A stretch of 64,000 nucleotides of DNA. Origin: Nitrospira lenta (lineage in GTDB: Bacteria; Nitrospirota; Nitrospiria; Nitrospirales; Nitrospiraceae). The stretch is taken from contig NZ_OUNR01000012.1 in the NCBI RefSeq assembly GCF_900403705.1, forward strand, positions 558,001 to 622,000, written 5' to 3'. Position numbers and translations under genes: made by a program. Shown here piece by piece: positions 6,302 to 12,936 of this stretch. The notes under the pieces are model-generated. The model had not been told where the DNA came from, ran no database searches, and saw only the letters and a program-made list of their open reading frames with translations. Numbering within the stretch: the first letter of the stretch is position 1; each line of letters starts with the position of its first letter.

Positions 6302-6514
6302 CTAGGCTTGTGAGTCCTGGTATTCCTCGTGCCAGGCCATCTGAATCGCTTCGAGGATCTTCTCGTTCGACTTCTTCGGATCATCCTTAAAATCAGGCAG
6401 CGCCACGATCCAGGCGTGCATATCCGTGAATCGAACGGTCAGCGGATCCGCATCCGGATGCTCTTCGACCAGTCGGATCGCAATATCTTCTGTATTCTGC
6501 CACTTCAAATCCAT
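6302..6514 (-). CDS. iscX: IscX, Fe-S assembly accessory protein
   Basis: Small acidic protein (70 aa) matching the IscX/YfhJ family along its whole length: LKWQNTEDIA near the N-terminus, then PLTVRFTDMHAWI and SNEKILEAIQ. Known IscX binds the cysteine desulfurase IscS and iron and tunes Fe-S assembly. The ATG at 6514 is preferred because GAGG sits seven bases upstream; a GTG at 6517 is also possible. It is the last gene of the isc operon, 22 bases after hscA, as in enterobacteria. Confidence 0.93.
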   Translation of the reverse strand: MDLKWQNTEDIAIRLVEEHPDADPLTVRFTDMHAWIVALPDFKDDPKKSNEKILEAIQMAWHEEYQDSQA

Positions 6515-6536
6515 CACTCGTCCTCGTTTTCAGGAT

Positions 6537-8357
6537 TTATGTAATCTCAGAGACCTTTTTCCCTTGTAGCCCTCGTTTGAGAGAGTCGTTCAACATGGCC
6601 ACGGTCAAGCTTTTTGCGGCCTGTTCAAGCTCAGACATTCGCGCCCGGATAGTGCGTGTGTCGTTCCCATCCTTGGCCGCGGCCAGTACTGAGAGTGCCT
6701 GACGGATGGCGGTGGCCTCGTCGGTTGAGATGAGCGGTGCGCCGTCGGTCAACGATTTTTCCGTGGTGATGATCAGGGCTCCGGCGTCGAGCCGGGCTTC
6801 AATCAATTTTCTCGCGCTGACATCGTCCGCGGCAAACTTGAACGAATCGTCGATCATCCGCTCGACTTCTTGATCCGACAACCCATAAGACGGCTTGACC
6901 TCGATGGACTGGGTGTCTCCCGTTCGCATGTCTTTGGCCATGACATTGAGGATGCCGTTGGCATCGATCAGGAAGGTTACTTCAATGCGGGGAACTCCCG
7001 CGGGCAGCGGGGGGACTTTCAGCCGGAAACGGGCCAGGCTGCGGTTGTCTTTCGCCAGCTCCCGTTCGCCTTGCAGAATGTGAATATCGACACCCGTCTG
7101 TCCGTCCACATACGTCGTGAACATTTCCTTGGCGCTGGCCGGGATCGTGGTATTGCGGCGAATCAGGCTGCTCATCACGCCGCCCATCGTTTCGATGCCG
7201 AGCGAGAGGGGCGTCACGTCGAGGAGGAGCATGTCGGTTGTGCCGCCGCTCAGAATGTCGGCCTGCACTGCGGCACCGAGGGCCACGACTTCGTCCGGGT
7301 TGAGCTCGCAGTGGGGCTGGGTGCCAAAGAGCGCCTGCACACGTTGCCGGACCAGCGGCATACGGGTCGAGCCGCCGACAAGCACCACTTCGTCGATGCC
7401 GGTTGCATTCAGCCCCGCATCTTTGAGGGCCAGGCGGCAGGGGCCCAGCGTACGTTCCACCAAGGCGTCGCAGAGCGACTCCAGTTGCTCGCGGGTGAGT
7501 TCGCGGGTGAAGAGACCCTTGCCGTCAGGAAGTTCCAGGCTCACGGTGGTCGTGAGTGTGTCCGAGAGGCGAATCTTTGCCTGTTCGGCTTCGAGGCGAA
7601 TTGCCTGCATGTGGTCGGGATAGGCATTCAGATCGAGTTCGAACTGCTTCTGAATCTCTCCGAGAAACAGATCGGCAATGATCCGATCGATGTCGTCGCC
7701 GCCCAGATGGGTGTCTCCGTTGGTGGCAAGGACTTCAAAGATGCCGTTCTTGAGCTTGAGAATGGAAATGTCGAAGGTCCCTCCGCCCAGGTCGTAGACG
7801 GCGATCGTGCCCTGCGTTTTTTCTTGGAGCCCATAGGCCAGCGAGGCGGCGGTGGGTTCGTTGATGATGCGCAAGACTTCAAGCCCGGCGATCATGCCGG
7901 CGTCCTTGGTGGCCTGTCGCTGACTGTCGTTGAAGTATGCGGGTACGGTGATGACGGCTTTGGTAATGCTCTCCCCGAGAAAGGCTTCCGCCCGGAGCTT
8001 CAGCTCCTTCAGGATCATGGCCGAGATTTGCGGAGGCGAATAGGTCTTCTCGCCGAGCTTAATGCGGATGACTCCGCCTTTCTCGGTAAGGGTATAGGGG
8101 AAGTAGGCCAGTTCGTTCTGAACGTCGGCCAGGCCCTTGCCCATGAAGCGTTTGACTGAATAGACCGTACGCTCAGGATTTCTAGTCAGATGTTCTTTGG
8201 CCGGATCGCCGACAATGAGTCCGTTGTCGGTCAGCGCGACGACGGAAGGAACCATTGCCCGCTCATGGCGGCCTGCGATGACGCGGGGTACGCCGTTGTC
8301 CATATAGGCGACAAGGGAGTTTGTTGTTCCGAGGTCTATGCCGACGATGCGTGCCAT
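6537..8357 (-). CDS. hscA: Fe-S assembly Hsp70 chaperone HscA
   Basis: Hsp70-type ATPase (606 aa) that, with HscB, releases Fe-S clusters from the scaffold IscU. The N-terminal nucleotide-binding domain starts [14 protein letters not shown] and contains [16 protein letters not shown] and [14 protein letters not shown]. The C-terminal substrate-binding domain contains [16 protein letters not shown]. The shortened C-terminal lid and the operon position between hscB and iscX point to HscA rather than DnaK. It starts five bases after the hscB stop. IscU in this operon carries the LPPVK motif that HscA recognises. Confidence 0.95.
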
Positions 8358-8362
8358 GGTGA

Positions 8363-9082
8363 TTACGCGATGGTGGCGACGAGGTCGTTGACGATGTTCT
8401 TGACGTAGGTGCGGTTGGAGAGTGTGTCCCGCATGTCTTTCAGGATACGGTCTCGTTCAGCGCGTGCCTGGTCGGTCGCGTCACCGCGGTCTTGCAGGCT
8501 ATCCCATCGACCGAAGAGTTGTTGGAGTTGGGTTTCCATGTCTCGTTGCCGACCCTCAAGTGCGGTGCGTTCGGATTGGAGTTGTGAACGGAGCGCAGCG
8601 GCAGCGTCGGAGGTTCGGTCACTGGCGCGGAATTCATCGAGCGTATCCTGCAGCTCAAGAATTTCTTCGAAGAGGTCGGCCGGCGGTGTCGTTCGGATCT
8701 CTTTCACGGAGCCGGCTTCGAGGTCCAGCAGGTACTCGGCGCGCTGAATCGGGTCTCGCAGTGTGCGATAGGCGGTGTTCAACATGGCCGAGTTGCCGAG
8801 GCTGATGGTCTGCTCGGCGTCGCTTTTATTCTGGTAAAAGTCGGGATGGAATGCCCGGCTTAATTCGTAGAATTTGGTTTCCAGCTGTTGCTGATCGAGG
8901 GCCAATCGGCGAGGAATGCCGAAGCAGGTGAAGTAATCCAGTTCCTTCGACACCGGCTGGACTTTCACGCAGCGATCGCAAAAGTATTCCCCGGAGACCT
9001 CGGACTGGCAGTGCCAGCACATGCTGCGAGCCATTTGCAGCTCGCGCCGGTCGTTGGTGTGATGATGTGTGTGTCCATCCAT
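8363..9082 (-). CDS. hscB: Fe-S co-chaperone HscB with N-terminal zinc finger
   Basis: J-domain co-chaperone that delivers IscU to HscA. After a His-rich stretch (HTHHHTND) comes a four-Cys motif (CWHC...CDRC), then a J-domain (YFTCFGIPRR...FHPDFYQNKS, with the HPD triad) and a C-terminal coiled helical domain that in this family binds IscU. The N-terminal zinc finger is absent from E. coli HscB but resembles that of eukaryotic HSCB. The start is uncertain: ATGs at 9118 (overlapping the iscA end), 9082 and 9034 are all in frame, and none has a strong ribosome site; 9082 was chosen because it gives a complete protein just after iscA. Confidence 0.9.
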   Translation of the reverse strand: MDGHTHHHTNDRRELQMARSMCWHCQSEVSGEYFCDRCVKVQPVSKELDYFTCFGIPRRLALDQQQLETKFYELSRAFHPDFYQNKSDAEQTISLGNSAMLNTAYRTLRDPIQRAEYLLDLEAGSVKEIRTTPPADLFEEILELQDTLDEFRASDRTSDAAAALRSQLQSERTALEGRQRDMETQLQQLFGRWDSLQDRGDATDQARAERDRILKDMRDTLSNRTYVKNIVNDLVATIA

Positions 9083-9095
9083 GCGCGTCACTCGT

Positions 9096-9452
9096 TTAAG
9101 CGGAGAACGATTCTCCACAGCCGCAAGTCTTGTTGGCGTTCGGATTGACGAACTTGAAATTCCCGCCCATCAAGTCTTTATGGTAATCCAATTGGGTGCC
9201 CTGCAAGTAGATCGCACTCTTGGTATCCACAATGATCTTCACGCCGTCGAATTCATAAACCTGGTCGTGCTGGCCTATTTTCTCGTCGAAGTTGATGGTG
9301 TAACTCAGGCCGGAGCAGCCGCCGCCCTTCACGCCGAGGCGAAGACCGCCTTCTTCGATGCCTTGGACGTTGATCAGGCGCTTAACTTCTTTCAGAGCTG
9401 CGTCCGTGAGCGAAATGACCGGGGCCTGGGCTTCGGTATTCGTGGCATCCAT
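9096..9452 (-). CDS. iscA: A-type Fe-S carrier protein
   Basis: A-type carrier (118 aa) that receives and passes on Fe-S clusters. The three conserved ligands are visible: one Cys in GGGCSGLSY and two in the C-terminal CGCGESF. The body matches HesB/IscA/ErpA (VISLTDAALKEVKRLI, GGNFKFVNPNA). Its place between iscU and hscB supports the name IscA, though the sequence alone cannot separate IscA from ErpA. The iscU-iscA gap is 23 bases. Confidence 0.93.
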   Translation of the reverse strand: MDATNTEAQAPVISLTDAALKEVKRLINVQGIEEGGLRLGVKGGGCSGLSYTINFDEKIGQHDQVYEFDGVKIIVDTKSAIYLQGTQLDYHKDLMGGNFKFVNPNANKTCGCGESFSA

Positions 9453-9475: not shown

Positions 9476-9859
9476 TTACTTTGTGTCGGCTTTCTTCTGA
9501 TAGTCGGCCAACGCCGCTTTGATCGCATCCTCCGCCAGCACCGAGCAGTGAATTTTTACCGGCGGCAGATTCAACTCCTGAACGATGTCAGTGTTCTTGA
9601 TCTTCTGGGCTTCTTCGATGGTTTTGCCCTTGAGCCATTCGGTCGCCAGGCTGGAGCTGGCAATGGCGGAGCCGCAGCCAAACGTTTTGAACTTGGCATC
9701 GACGATGGTGTCGTTCTGGACCTTAATCTGGAGTTTCATGACGTCGCCGCACTCGGGTGCGCCGACCATACCGGTCCCCACGCCGTCTTCGTCTTTCTTG
9801 AAACTTCCCATGTTTCTGGGATTGTTGAAATGATCGACGACTTTGTCACTGTATGCCAT
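9476..9859 (-). CDS. iscU: Fe-S cluster scaffold IscU
   Basis: Scaffold (127 aa) on which new Fe-S clusters are built with sulfur from IscS. The cluster ligands are present: Cys37 with Asp39 (GAPECGDV), Cys62 (FGCGSAIASSS) and Cys105 (KIHCSVLAEDA). The LPPVK motif for HscA binding is at residues 98-102. The length equals that of typical IscU. It lies directly after iscS in the operon. Confidence 0.97.
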   Translation of the reverse strand: MAYSDKVVDHFNNPRNMGSFKKDEDGVGTGMVGAPECGDVMKLQIKVQNDTIVDAKFKTFGCGSAIASSSLATEWLKGKTIEEAQKIKNTDIVQELNLPPVKIHCSVLAEDAIKAALADYQKKADTK

Positions 9860-9887: not shown

Positions 9888-11105
9888 TCAGTGAGCGGCC
9901 CACTGAACGGATTTCAAATCGACTCCTTCTTTCGCCATTTCATACAACGGCGACATCTCACGCAGCTTCGTCACGATCTCAATAACCTTCTTGATCGTGT
10001 AGTCAATCTCTTCGTCCGTATTGAAACGGCCCAAGCCGAAGCGGATAGAGGAGTGAGCGAGTTCGACGCCCACGCCCAGGGCCCGCAGGACGTAGGATGG
10101 CTCCAGCGTCGCCGAGGTGCAGGCGGAGCCGGACGAGAGCGCAATGTCTTTCATGCCCATCAAGAGCGATTCACCCTCGACGTAGGCAAAGGAAATATTC
10201 AGGTTATGCGGCAAGCGCTGGGTCGGATGGCCGTTGAGGTAGGCTTCGTCGATCTCTTTCATGATGCCGGCTTGTAGGCGGTCGCGCATTGTGGCGAGGC
10301 GTACGGACTCCGCAGCCATTTCCTGGTCGCACAATTCGCAGGCCTTGCCGAATCCGACGATCAACGGAACCGGCAGGGTGCCTGACCGCATGCCGCGTTC
10401 GTGCCCGCCGCCGTCCATTTGGGCCGCAATCCGCACACGGGGGTTCTTCTTTCTGACATAGAGCGCGCCGACACCCTTCGGGCCATAGATCTTATGGGCC
10501 GAGAATGACATCAGATCGATGCCCATATCCTGCACATCGACAGGAATCTTGCCGACGCCCTGAGTGGCATCGCAGTGGAACAGGATGCCCTTTTCCTTGG
10601 CGATCTTGCCGATTTCCTTCACCGGGTTGATTGTGCCGATTTCATTGTTGGCGAGCATCACGGAAATCAGGACCGTCTTGTCCGTGATCGCGTTCCGCAC
10701 GTCTTCCGGATTCACCATTCCGTACTTGTCGACAGGCAGGTAGGTCACGGTCGCCTTGCCCTTCGCTTCAAGCGCTTTGGCGGTATCGATCACGGCGCGG
10801 TGTTCCGTAGACGACGTAATGATATGGTCGCCTTTTTCCTTGTACATCTCTAAGACGCCCTTGATCGCGAGATTGTCCGATTCAGTGGCGCCGCTGGTGA
10901 AGACGATTTCTTTGGGGTCCGCCTTGATCAGCTTGGCGATCTGCTTCCGGGCATTTTCAACGGCTTCTTCAGCCGCCCAACCGAAGGCATGATTGCGGCT
11001 GGCGGCGTTGCCGAACTTCTCTACGAAGTAGGGCAGCATGGCGTCCAGCACTCGGGGGTCCATCGGGGAGGTTGAGTGGTTATCTAGAAAAATAGGGAGC
11101 TTCAT
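9888..11105 (-). CDS. iscS: cysteine desulfurase IscS
   Basis: PLP enzyme (405 aa) that removes sulfur from L-cysteine for Fe-S clusters and thiolated tRNA. The N-terminus [14 protein letters not shown], the PLP-lysine region [10 protein letters not shown] (Lys205) and the mobile active-site loop [14 protein letters not shown] (Cys329) mark group I desulfurases. The start ATG overlaps the iscR stop by four bases (ATGA), indicating translational coupling. Confidence 0.97.
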
Positions 11106-11575
11106 TGTGCGACTCCTTGTGCCGAGGGAGACTGAATCGTGATGAGGGGCGTGCCGCCCATCATGTCTTGCAACGTCATATTATTGAGGAGCTGATAAAT
11201 ACTATCTTGAACCTTGAGCAGCGGCGTGCGGATATTACAGTGTTCCCGCTGGAGGCAGAGTTCACCTTCTTTTTCATGCGAGCAATCTGTAATGCCCAGC
11301 GGGCCCTCGATACCTTCGAGAATCTGCGCGATCGTGATCTGCCTCGTACTGCGAGCCAAGAGGTAGCCGCCTTTGGGACCGTTGTGGCTTTCAATCAACC
11401 CGTTCTTGGCAAGGGTTTGAAGGACCTTCGCCAGGAGTTCGAGAGGAATGTTATATTCCTCCGCGATTTCTTTGGTATTGACGACGCGGCCCGGTGTCAC
11501 ATCTCCGAATTGCACCAAGGCAATGTGTTGGAGTGCCATCAGGGCGTAATCGGCTTTTTTTGAAATCTTCAACAT
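11102..11575 (-). CDS. iscR: Rrf2-family Fe-S regulator IscR
   Basis: Rrf2-type winged-helix regulator (157 aa). The helix-turn-helix is N-terminal ([39 protein letters not shown]). Three Cys (98, 107, 113) could hold a 2Fe-2S cluster. Their spacing is C-x8-C-x5-C, longer in the first gap than the C-x5-C-x5-C of E. coli IscR. First gene of the isc operon. The upstream palindromes at 11584-11633 are its likely binding sites, so autoregulation is expected. Confidence 0.93.
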
Positions 11576-11580
11576 AGCTA

Positions 11581-11610
11581 TTGCCGATCAATAGGATCGG
11601 AGACTATAAT
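11581..11610 (+). promoter_or_regulatory. predicted promoter for ferredoxin (divergent to iscR promoter)
   Basis: TTGCCG (11581-11586), an 18-base spacer and a perfect TATAAT (11605-11610) on the plus strand. On the minus strand the same AT-rich core gives TATAGT (11608-11603) as the candidate iscR -10, with no clear -35. The two promoters would therefore overlap back to back. Confidence 0.5.
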
Positions 11611-11633
11611 GATCTCCGATCAATAAGGTCGGA
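11584..11633. promoter_or_regulatory. twin palindromic operator, probably for IscR
   Basis: Two copies of one palindrome: CCGATCAATAGGATCGG (11584-11600; perfect 6-base arms, 5-base spacer) and CCGATCAATAAGGTCGG (11616-11632; one mismatch). Centres are 32 bases apart, about three helical turns. They flank the shared AT-rich -10 core of the divergent iscR and fdx promoters. The geometry is that of a dimeric Rrf2-type regulator. Assignment to IscR is inference from position. Confidence 0.7.
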
Positions 11634-11713
11634 CTAAAGATACCACGCAGCTTTTGGGGCTGTCAACATCGGAATCTTGGATCTCTCGCATAGAAATAGA
11701 AAGGACGCCGCGT

Positions 11714-12130
11714 ATGGGAGGCACTAATCCGTATATCGAAAAAGCAGCGCACGAACTCCCTCAGGTCCCTTATACCATCACCTATATTGAGCCGGATGGC
11801 ACGGTGACCAAAGTTGCCGTCGACCCCACGAAGATTCCCTATGGGCCCACCGGTTTGCCCGGAAGCATTCTTGATGTGGCGATGGCCAATGGGGTTGATT
11901 TAGAACATGTCTGTGGTGGCGTGTGCGCCTGCTCGACCTGCCATGTGATCGTCAAGCAAGGGCTTGAGAGCTGTAGTGAGGGGACCGACGACGAATTCGA
12001 TCAGCTGGATGAGGCTCCGATCACGACATTGCAGTCTCGCCTCGGATGCCAATGTGTGCCGAACGGCACGAAGGACATCGTAGTAGAGATTCCAGCCGTC
12101 AACAAAAATCTCGTGAGGGAAGGGCACTAA
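11714..12130 (+). CDS. fdx: 2Fe-2S ferredoxin (ISC type)
   Basis: Adrenodoxin-like ferredoxin (138 aa) that supplies electrons for Fe-S assembly. Cluster Cys are seen in HVCGGVCACSTCHV and GCQCVPNG; acidic helix residues EGTDDEFDQLDE follow the binding loop. The ATG at 11714 is chosen over a longer frame from 11654 because AAGGA lies eight bases upstream. In enterobacteria fdx sits between hscA and iscX; here it is divergent from iscR but shares its control region. Its stop overlaps the stop of the convergent reductase gene by four bases. Confidence 0.92.
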   Translation: MGGTNPYIEKAAHELPQVPYTITYIEPDGTVTKVAVDPTKIPYGPTGLPGSILDVAMANGVDLEHVCGGVCACSTCHVIVKQGLESCSEGTDDEFDQLDEAPITTLQSRLGCQCVPNGTKDIVVEIPAVNKNLVREGH

Positions 12131-12831
12131 TCGAAGGTCTCTGTCTTTACTTCTTTCCGGTCATAGCCGAATTCCATCAACCCGGTACGTAATGGCCGGA
12201 CAAATCCTTTTGTTACACTGATCATCGGGATGACTTTAGGCTGCCCTTCTACAAGGGGACGCAGCATGGCCAACGTTCGTTCAATCGCTTCGGCTTCTCC
12301 GCCGGGTATGACCAAGGGCAGGTATCGGAAGGAGGGGGATTGAACAGCCAAGGTAAGCAGTTCCTGGTGAAACAATAACTCGTCCTCCGACGGGGCAACT
12401 GCGATGAGGAGGACCGGGGTACTGGTATGAGCTTCGGCCAGTTGTTTCAGGAGGCAGCGAATCGGAACCAGGCCGGTATAGCGGGCAATAAAGAGAAGTT
12501 CCCGATCTAAGGGCATCGGCAGCACAAAGTTCCCATAAGGGCCAGAGATCGGAACCTCATCGCCGGATTTCAGGCGATAGAGGTAGCTTGAGCCGACCCC
12601 TTCAGGTATCCGGTCAAAAACCAGCGTCAACTCTCCATAGGGAGAAGAAGGATCGGCCATCGAGTAGGCACGATTAAGCGGCGGCTTGTCCCCGACTGGC
12701 AGTTTCAGCGAGACCCATTGCCCCGGTTGAAATAGAATTTTCTGCTGGAGCGGGCGAAGGACCAGTTGCCGCACATGGGGTGTCAGATCGAGTGTGGAAA
12801 GCACGACTGCTGGTTGGGTAAGTTCTGCCAT
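12127..12831 (-). CDS. FAD-binding ferredoxin reductase-like oxidoreductase
   Basis: FNR-superfamily flavoprotein (234 aa from the ATG at 12831; a longer frame begins at 12852). The FAD motif RAYSM and the following GELTLVFDRIPEGVGSSYL and SGPYGNFVLP are typical. The nucleotide-binding motif is altered to ARYTGLVPIR, where a GGTG(I/L)xP form is usual, so the NAD(P)H preference is unclear. It is convergent with fdx and overlaps it by four bases. The likely role, by inference, is to reduce the neighbouring ferredoxin. Confidence 0.82.
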   Translation of the reverse strand: MAELTQPAVVLSTLDLTPHVRQLVLRPLQQKILFQPGQWVSLKLPVGDKPPLNRAYSMADPSSPYGELTLVFDRIPEGVGSSYLYRLKSGDEVPISGPYGNFVLPMPLDRELLFIARYTGLVPIRCLLKQLAEAHTSTPVLLIAVAPSEDELLFHQELLTLAVQSPSFRYLPLVIPGGEAEAIERTLAMLRPLVEGQPKVIPMISVTKGFVRPLRTGLMEFGYDRKEVKTETFD

Positions 12832-12936
12832 ACAACCGATATCTATCCTCATAGCAGAACCGGTCTGATTCTGTACAACACTTTTCCGTGCGTGTTATAG
12901 ATACCGGCCTTTCCCTACTAAACATGAGATGAACGC

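Follow-up and report, generated by a model that had tools for sequence, protein, structure and literature searches.

A putative three-box operator hosting the face-to-face promoters of the isc operon and the ferredoxin gene in Nitrospira

The isc-fdx locus and its control region

In the window (the whole 64,000-nucleotide stretch of Nitrospira lenta DNA analysed here) an isc operon, headed by a gene in the iscR position, runs leftward, and a ferredoxin gene diverges from it:

6302-6517, minus strand: iscX, the gene that fdx adjoins within the operon in outgroup lineages
6537-8357, minus strand: hscA
8363-9031, minus strand: hscB, start codon uncertain
9096-9452, minus strand: iscA
9476-9859, minus strand: iscU
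9888-11105, minus strand: iscS
11102-11575, minus strand: regulator gene in the iscR position, coding for a 157-residue Rrf2 family protein, apparently RisR/NsrR-like, with a cysteine trio and Asp9
11714-12130, plus strand: fdx, coding for a probable ISC-type [2Fe-2S] ferredoxin, best model fdx_isc

The fdx product recovers TIGR02007 (fdx_isc) as its top-scoring model, with 85.4 bits against a cut-off of 132.1, and the isc context is present. The nearest named loci belong to Nitrospira sp. CG24D and WB-IL-20, with N. moscoviensis also among the matches. A gene for a FAD-binding reductase-like protein (12127-12852, minus strand) lies tail to tail with fdx and overlaps its stop codon; in family f2 this pair is likewise adjacent and convergent (L053 and L057). 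The reductase-like protein may be the electron donor of the ferredoxin, and its gene may have been relocated together with fdx. In one genome of the same genus, G054, which is about 99% complete, neither the regulator nor fdx had a strong match. We considered it as a natural knock-out and set it aside, an assembly gap being possible instead of a true loss of the isc locus.

The region between iscR and fdx contains a candidate operator of 49 bp (11584-11632), made up of three overlapping boxes of the form GAY-N7-RTC at a pitch of exactly 16 bp. An earlier note on this DNA had described two near-identical 17-base palindromes with centres 32 bases apart; both are there as boxes A and C (89% identity over 18 nt, centre to centre 32 bp), and a third box, B, which had been missed, lies exactly midway between them in what was then described as an AT core. 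Promoter elements for both genes are interleaved with, or adjoin, these boxes:

11581-11586, plus strand: fdx -35 hexamer TTGCCG, whose CCG is also that of box A
11584-11600: box A, CCGATCAATAGGATCGG, with its core GATCAATAGGATC at 11586-11598; its left arm overlaps the fdx -35
11600-11616: box B, with its core GACTATAATGATC at 11602-11614; its 7-bp centre contains the fdx -10
11605-11610, plus strand: fdx -10 hexamer TATAAT, after an 18-bp spacer, filling the centre of box B
11616-11632: box C, CCGATCAATAAGGTCGG, with its core GATCAATAAGGTC at 11618-11630; it starts 4 bp past the iscR -10, and the predicted starts of both genes lie within it
11617-11630: predicted 5'-end overlap, judged from the -10 positions, with the fdx start at about 11617 (rightward) and the iscR start at about 11630 (leftward)
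11637-11645, minus strand: iscR extended -10 TGG-TATCTT, with the hexamer at 11637-11642, TG at 11644-11645 and an 18-bp spacer
11661-11666, minus strand: iscR -35 hexamer TTGACA, 96-98% conserved

Thus, the two genes are divergent and their promoters appear to point toward each other, with both predicted starts (placed about 7 bp past each -10) falling within box C; the fdx and iscR transcripts should accordingly have about 14 complementary 5' bases in common. Taking 10.5 bp per turn, successive boxes would be 1.5 helical turns apart, which would put A and C on one face of the DNA and B on the opposite face. The tandem arrangement of two boxes at 16-bp pitch occurs only at this locus in the 3.76-Mb genome (two overlapping matches, with 0 for the reversed-pattern control). 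The lone palindrome is not rare in itself: allowing up to two mismatches, there are 13 in the window as against 7.85 expected. When extended, box B becomes a perfect inverted repeat of 9 bp (GATCGGAGA / TCTCCGATC, with a 9-nt loop, 11595-11621); in the RNA of the predicted iscR leader this repeat would fold as a hairpin.

Conservation and distribution of the boxes in Nitrospirota

To define the constraints on these elements we used 91 unique intergenic sequences of Nitrospira, drawn from 130 rows. Across this set the box arms are near-fixed; of the centres, that of box A is free to drift and that of box C takes various A/T-rich forms. Where the arms vary, the exchange is mostly C/T in the GAYY half and A/G in the RRTC half, which fits the expectation for a degenerate protein site; the right arm of box B is purine-purine (RRTC) in 91 of 91 sequences, and the TATTG immediately outside box A does not vary. 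The fixed centre of box B is explained by its being the -10 hexamer; this centre varies in f2 and basal f1, which lack an fdx promoter at this position. Part of the invariance of boxes A and B could reflect promoter constraint alone, since both overlap promoter elements. In the iscR promoter the TG, the TA, the final T and the bases of TTGACA are each 96-98% conserved over the 91 sequences, the first three of them 97-98%. When up to two mismatches are allowed, nearly all genomes of the genus have the composite pattern TTGACA-N18-TAnnnT-N4-CCGAY-N7-RTCGG at iscR, with reversed controls near zero. The palindromes, whose possible absence from related intergenic regions had earlier been raised, are present in 130 of 130 genus rows. 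The form with the embedded fdx promoter is found in 144 of the 235 genomes of the order, belonging to seven genera of family f1 (Nitrospira and six allied genera) and nowhere else.

The boxes at the iscR promoter have a far wider distribution. Nearly every Nitrospirota isc operon examined has an operator of one to three boxes, mostly 5-7 bp downstream of the iscR -10, and the combination of TTGAC-N17/18-TAnnnT, mostly TG-extended, followed by a box recurs in nearly every family examined. The boxes are usually repeated at 16-bp pitch (f1-f4 and the outgroups); a single clear box is seen in f13 and in most f3 loci, and two loci (L061 and L229) do not fit the promoter-box search expression. The iscR promoter keeps its outer position in basal f1, f2 and the outgroups, where the core differs from TATA(A/G)T. 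The tandem pattern with one mismatch is recovered from 54 of the 56 phylum genomes with a strong regulator match as against 25 of the 62 without one; we rejected it as a presence/absence test for the phylum, its background being too high and the pattern only moderately specific.

The position of fdx varies considerably across these lineages. In all 15 outgroup loci examined (f5, f6, f13, f14 and f18) fdx is inside the operon, beside iscX or at the operon end, and outgroup loci of this kind also carry the boxes at the iscR promoter. As the operator is present where fdx is still within the operon, it is older than the divergent position of fdx. Thirteen basal f1 loci have a divergent fdx and a usually triple operator, with a gap of about 185-475 bp and without the fdx hexamers. 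In f2 it is gltX, not fdx, that is divergent from iscR, and the DNA upstream of fdx has no box in the two genomes of this family where it could be read. In the sister family f3 the fdx promoter is back-to-back with that of iscR and has its own boxes over and after the fdx -10 (GACTAAAATGGTC, with a second box 16 bp further); these fdx-side boxes are recovered by the search expression from 8 of 11 loci, and the three that it misses diverge at the -10. The order of acquisition shown by the sequences thus has the operator first, followed by the move of fdx to its side; co-control took shape in at least two layouts, with the fdx start signal of Nitrospira and its allies apparently written into the ancient boxes later. 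The earlier idea that fdx stays co-regulated after leaving the operon is borne out to the extent that fdx has left and now has a promoter lying within the operator, an arrangement that would explain continued co-regulation; relocation alone did not guarantee it, as the two f2 genomes and the basal f1 loci illustrate.

The embedded promoter may have come at a price. The iscR leader (11576-11586, minus strand) has little Shine-Dalgarno complementarity across the genus, and its anti-Shine-Dalgarno pairing has a median of -1.7 kcal/mol in the genus as against -6.6 in basal f1 (values uncorrected for phylogeny, with f2 and f4 also weak). The fdx -35 sits where many basal f1 genera have GGAG(G) beside box A. 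This suggests a trade-off between the fdx -35 and the ribosome-binding site of iscR.

A search for further sites recovered the promoter-plus-tandem-box module upstream of the gene for the Mrp/NBP35 Fe-S carrier in three f2 genomes (L177/G068, L178/G065 and L179/G059), and by this token Mrp/NBP35 is apparently a second member of the regulon in f2. No conserved box was found at mrp in Nitrospira. Within the present genome the palindrome search that the earlier note had proposed gave seven strict single-box matches, including the two known ones, as against four for the reversed control. The remainder were rejected as targets, having mostly GC-rich centres, with the AT-rich one lying within a coding sequence; hence, from this genome-wide single-box search we claim no second target here. 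In the f4 genome G067 (L181:1640-1730) a gene for a sigma-70 family (RpoD-like) protein has upstream of it a TTGACA promoter and, after this, a pair of GAY-N7-RTC boxes spaced at 16-bp pitch.

The regulator encoded at the iscR position

The regulator is a member of the Rrf2 superfamily (PF02082, 116.9 bits, cut-off 30; TIGR00738, 109.7 bits, cut-off 73.3). It falls below the cut-offs of the IscR equivalog models (TIGR02010, 69.7 vs 207.55 bits; PRK10857, 54.9 vs 275) and of the NsrR model PRK11014 (53.1 vs 182 bits). A phylum-wide alignment revealed that three cysteines and Asp9 are kept without exception, outgroups included, and that the histidine ligand of IscR (His107) is absent, with an arginine at +3 after the third cysteine throughout Nitrospirota. 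The position of E. coli Arg59 holds neither arginine nor lysine in this protein, unlike in most Rrf2 proteins, and the positions equivalent to E43 and Q44 in the recognition helix of IscR hold alanine and lysine, as in NsrR. Its apparent targets are isc, fdx and mrp, and the NO-detoxification genes by which NsrR is recognised are not among them. Together, these features place the regulator closer to RisR/NsrR than to true IscR and disfavour the annotation "IscR". The published statement that Rrf2 group IS6 includes Nitrospirae (PMC9973013), along with the residue features and the isc context, makes it a candidate member of that group. The proposal that one Rrf2 regulator, IscR, switches both transcripts is hence retained as regards the single operator and a regulator of the Rrf2 type, which is plausible, and is not supported as regards the name IscR, on account of the model cut-off, the missing histidine and the resemblance to RisR/NsrR-type members. 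The genome codes for five Rrf2 proteins, namely this regulator and four paralogs; the genes of two of the paralogs are separated by about 2 kb, at G000:C2:20640-23096.

A proposed two-gene switch, its alternatives and its relation to known systems

We consider it quite probable that the three-box unit is the autoregulatory operator of the regulator and that it hosts the fdx promoter, thereby forming one switch for isc and fdx. At the sequence level the case for joint control of the two is strong. Regulator binding, repression by the holo form, cluster sensing, mutual exclusion of the promoters and the start sites are all inferred from sequence. In this model the regulator, which most likely acts with its Fe-S cluster loaded, would occupy the DNA from a few bp past the iscR -10 to about +45, covering the iscR start site and blocking RNA polymerase. 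The fdx promoter would have arisen inside this operator, with its -35 in box A, its -10 in box B and its start in box C, such that a single occupied operator silences both promoters and loss of the cluster releases the isc operon and fdx together. Moreover, the face-to-face promoters would have overlapping polymerase footprints, so that at most one of them could be occupied at a time. One sensor protein, therefore, probably controls the isc operon and fdx together.

The alternative that survives best, though improbable, is that the operator serves iscR-isc only and that the fdx promoter merely overlaps it, fdx being constitutive or set by polymerase competition. The operator does predate the fdx promoter, and the two f2 genomes have an fdx without any box; yet the -35, the -10 and the predicted start of fdx all lie within boxes, where a bound protein would exclude polymerase, and f3 puts boxes over and after its own fdx -10. 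Very unlikely, in our estimate, is the originally proposed layout, in which two IscR palindromes flank a common AT core that supplies TATAAT as the fdx -10 and TATAGT (minus strand, 11603-11608) as the iscR -10. Both hexamers are literally there and nearly invariant in the genus, and the first assignment holds: 89 of 92 unique genus sequences have the fdx promoter, with TATAAT at 11605-11610, as their top sigma-70-like site on the plus strand. The second does not: TATAGT has no good -35 (the best is CCGACC) and scores 5.1, below the mean best score of 6.3 in shuffles, whereas TTGACA-18-TATCTT at 11637-11666 is conserved and scores 13.1, and this position is the top minus-strand site in 87 of the 92 sequences (the weights are approximate E. 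coli frequencies, making the ranking more meaningful than the scores). In addition, the core is filled by the third box, and the outer iscR promoter is kept in basal f1, f2 and the outgroups.

We give equally little credence to the use of the boxes by a different DNA-binding protein, be it one of the four other Rrf2 paralogs or an unrelated factor: the presence of five Rrf2 genes leaves candidates, but the boxes follow the promoter of the regulator's own gene across the phylum set and recur in f2 at an Fe-S carrier gene. Least likely of all, the inverted repeats would not form a DNA operator but would act in the iscR leader as RNA hairpins. This would suit the position of the perfect repeat of box B in that leader but goes against the fixed, non-covarying arms, the maintained 16-bp pitch, a box C that spans the start sites, the boxes that also occur at mrp and the f3 fdx promoter, and the match of GAY-N7-RTC to a known Rrf2 DNA site (PMC9973013).

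Returning to the two-promoter operator, we also offer, as a tentative and rather doubtful extension, that the phased triple operator became a two-gene switch as the fdx promoter evolved inside the iscR operator, partly at the expense of the iscR ribosome-binding site, and that in these nitrite oxidisers the balance between ferredoxin and assembly machinery is set jointly by a single Fe-S repressor of the Cys3-Asp type, perhaps responsive to NO, and by mutual exclusion of polymerases. Autoregulation of isc by Rrf2 proteins is known; what appears new is a triple phased operator hosting two face-to-face promoters, and our literature searches on Fe-S regulation in Nitrospira and on face-to-face promoters found nothing directly relevant. 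The analysis provides a candidate operator for Fe-S homeostasis in Nitrospirota, a phylum on which those searches yielded no comparable study, and an apparent case of a gene that left its operon being re-coupled to it via a promoter built into the regulator's own operator. The different layouts with which f1 and its sister family f3 seem to address the same problem offer a natural comparison.

The E. coli system is similar in having a feedback regulator as the first isc gene and a type 1 site with a GAC-N7-GTC core (GACTGATTTAGTC, upstream of iscR). It differs in that fdx lies inside the isc operon, that the sole further sequence resembling a box (GAGTAAATTGGTC) starts at a distance of 25 bp, with no 16-bp array, and that IscR uses Cys3-His ligation of a [2Fe-2S] cluster, whereas the Nitrospira regulator fails the IscR model. 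Streptomyces coelicolor NsrR is comparable in its cysteine trio, its N-terminal aspartate (Asp8, a cluster ligand (PMC5411485), which aligns with Asp9) and the Ala/Lys pair at the E43/Q44 positions, but it controls NO-stress genes, not isc. In NsrR the cysteines and Asp8 ligate a [4Fe-4S] cluster, and the equivalent residues are present and invariant in the Nitrospirota set. The Pseudomonas aeruginosa iscR promoter resembles that of Nitrospira in having several regulator sites, in its case two of type 1; the part of PMC6599224 drawn on here describes two IscR-type sites and no common divergent fdx promoter. The closest parallel in mode of action is Myxococcus xanthus RisR, the characterised member of IS6, which in its holo form binds GAC-N7-GTC across the -10 and start of isc and thereby represses it (PMC9973013). 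Like RisR, the Nitrospira protein is an Rrf2 protein and putative regulator of an isc operon, with three cysteines and a GAC-N7-GTC-type site at the isc -10/start, and the operator expected of the RisR/IS6 group is seen in nearly all loci as GAY-N7-RTC boxes 5-7 bp from the -10. The RisR system has one palindrome per promoter (PMC9973013), whereas Nitrospira has three boxes and two face-to-face promoters.
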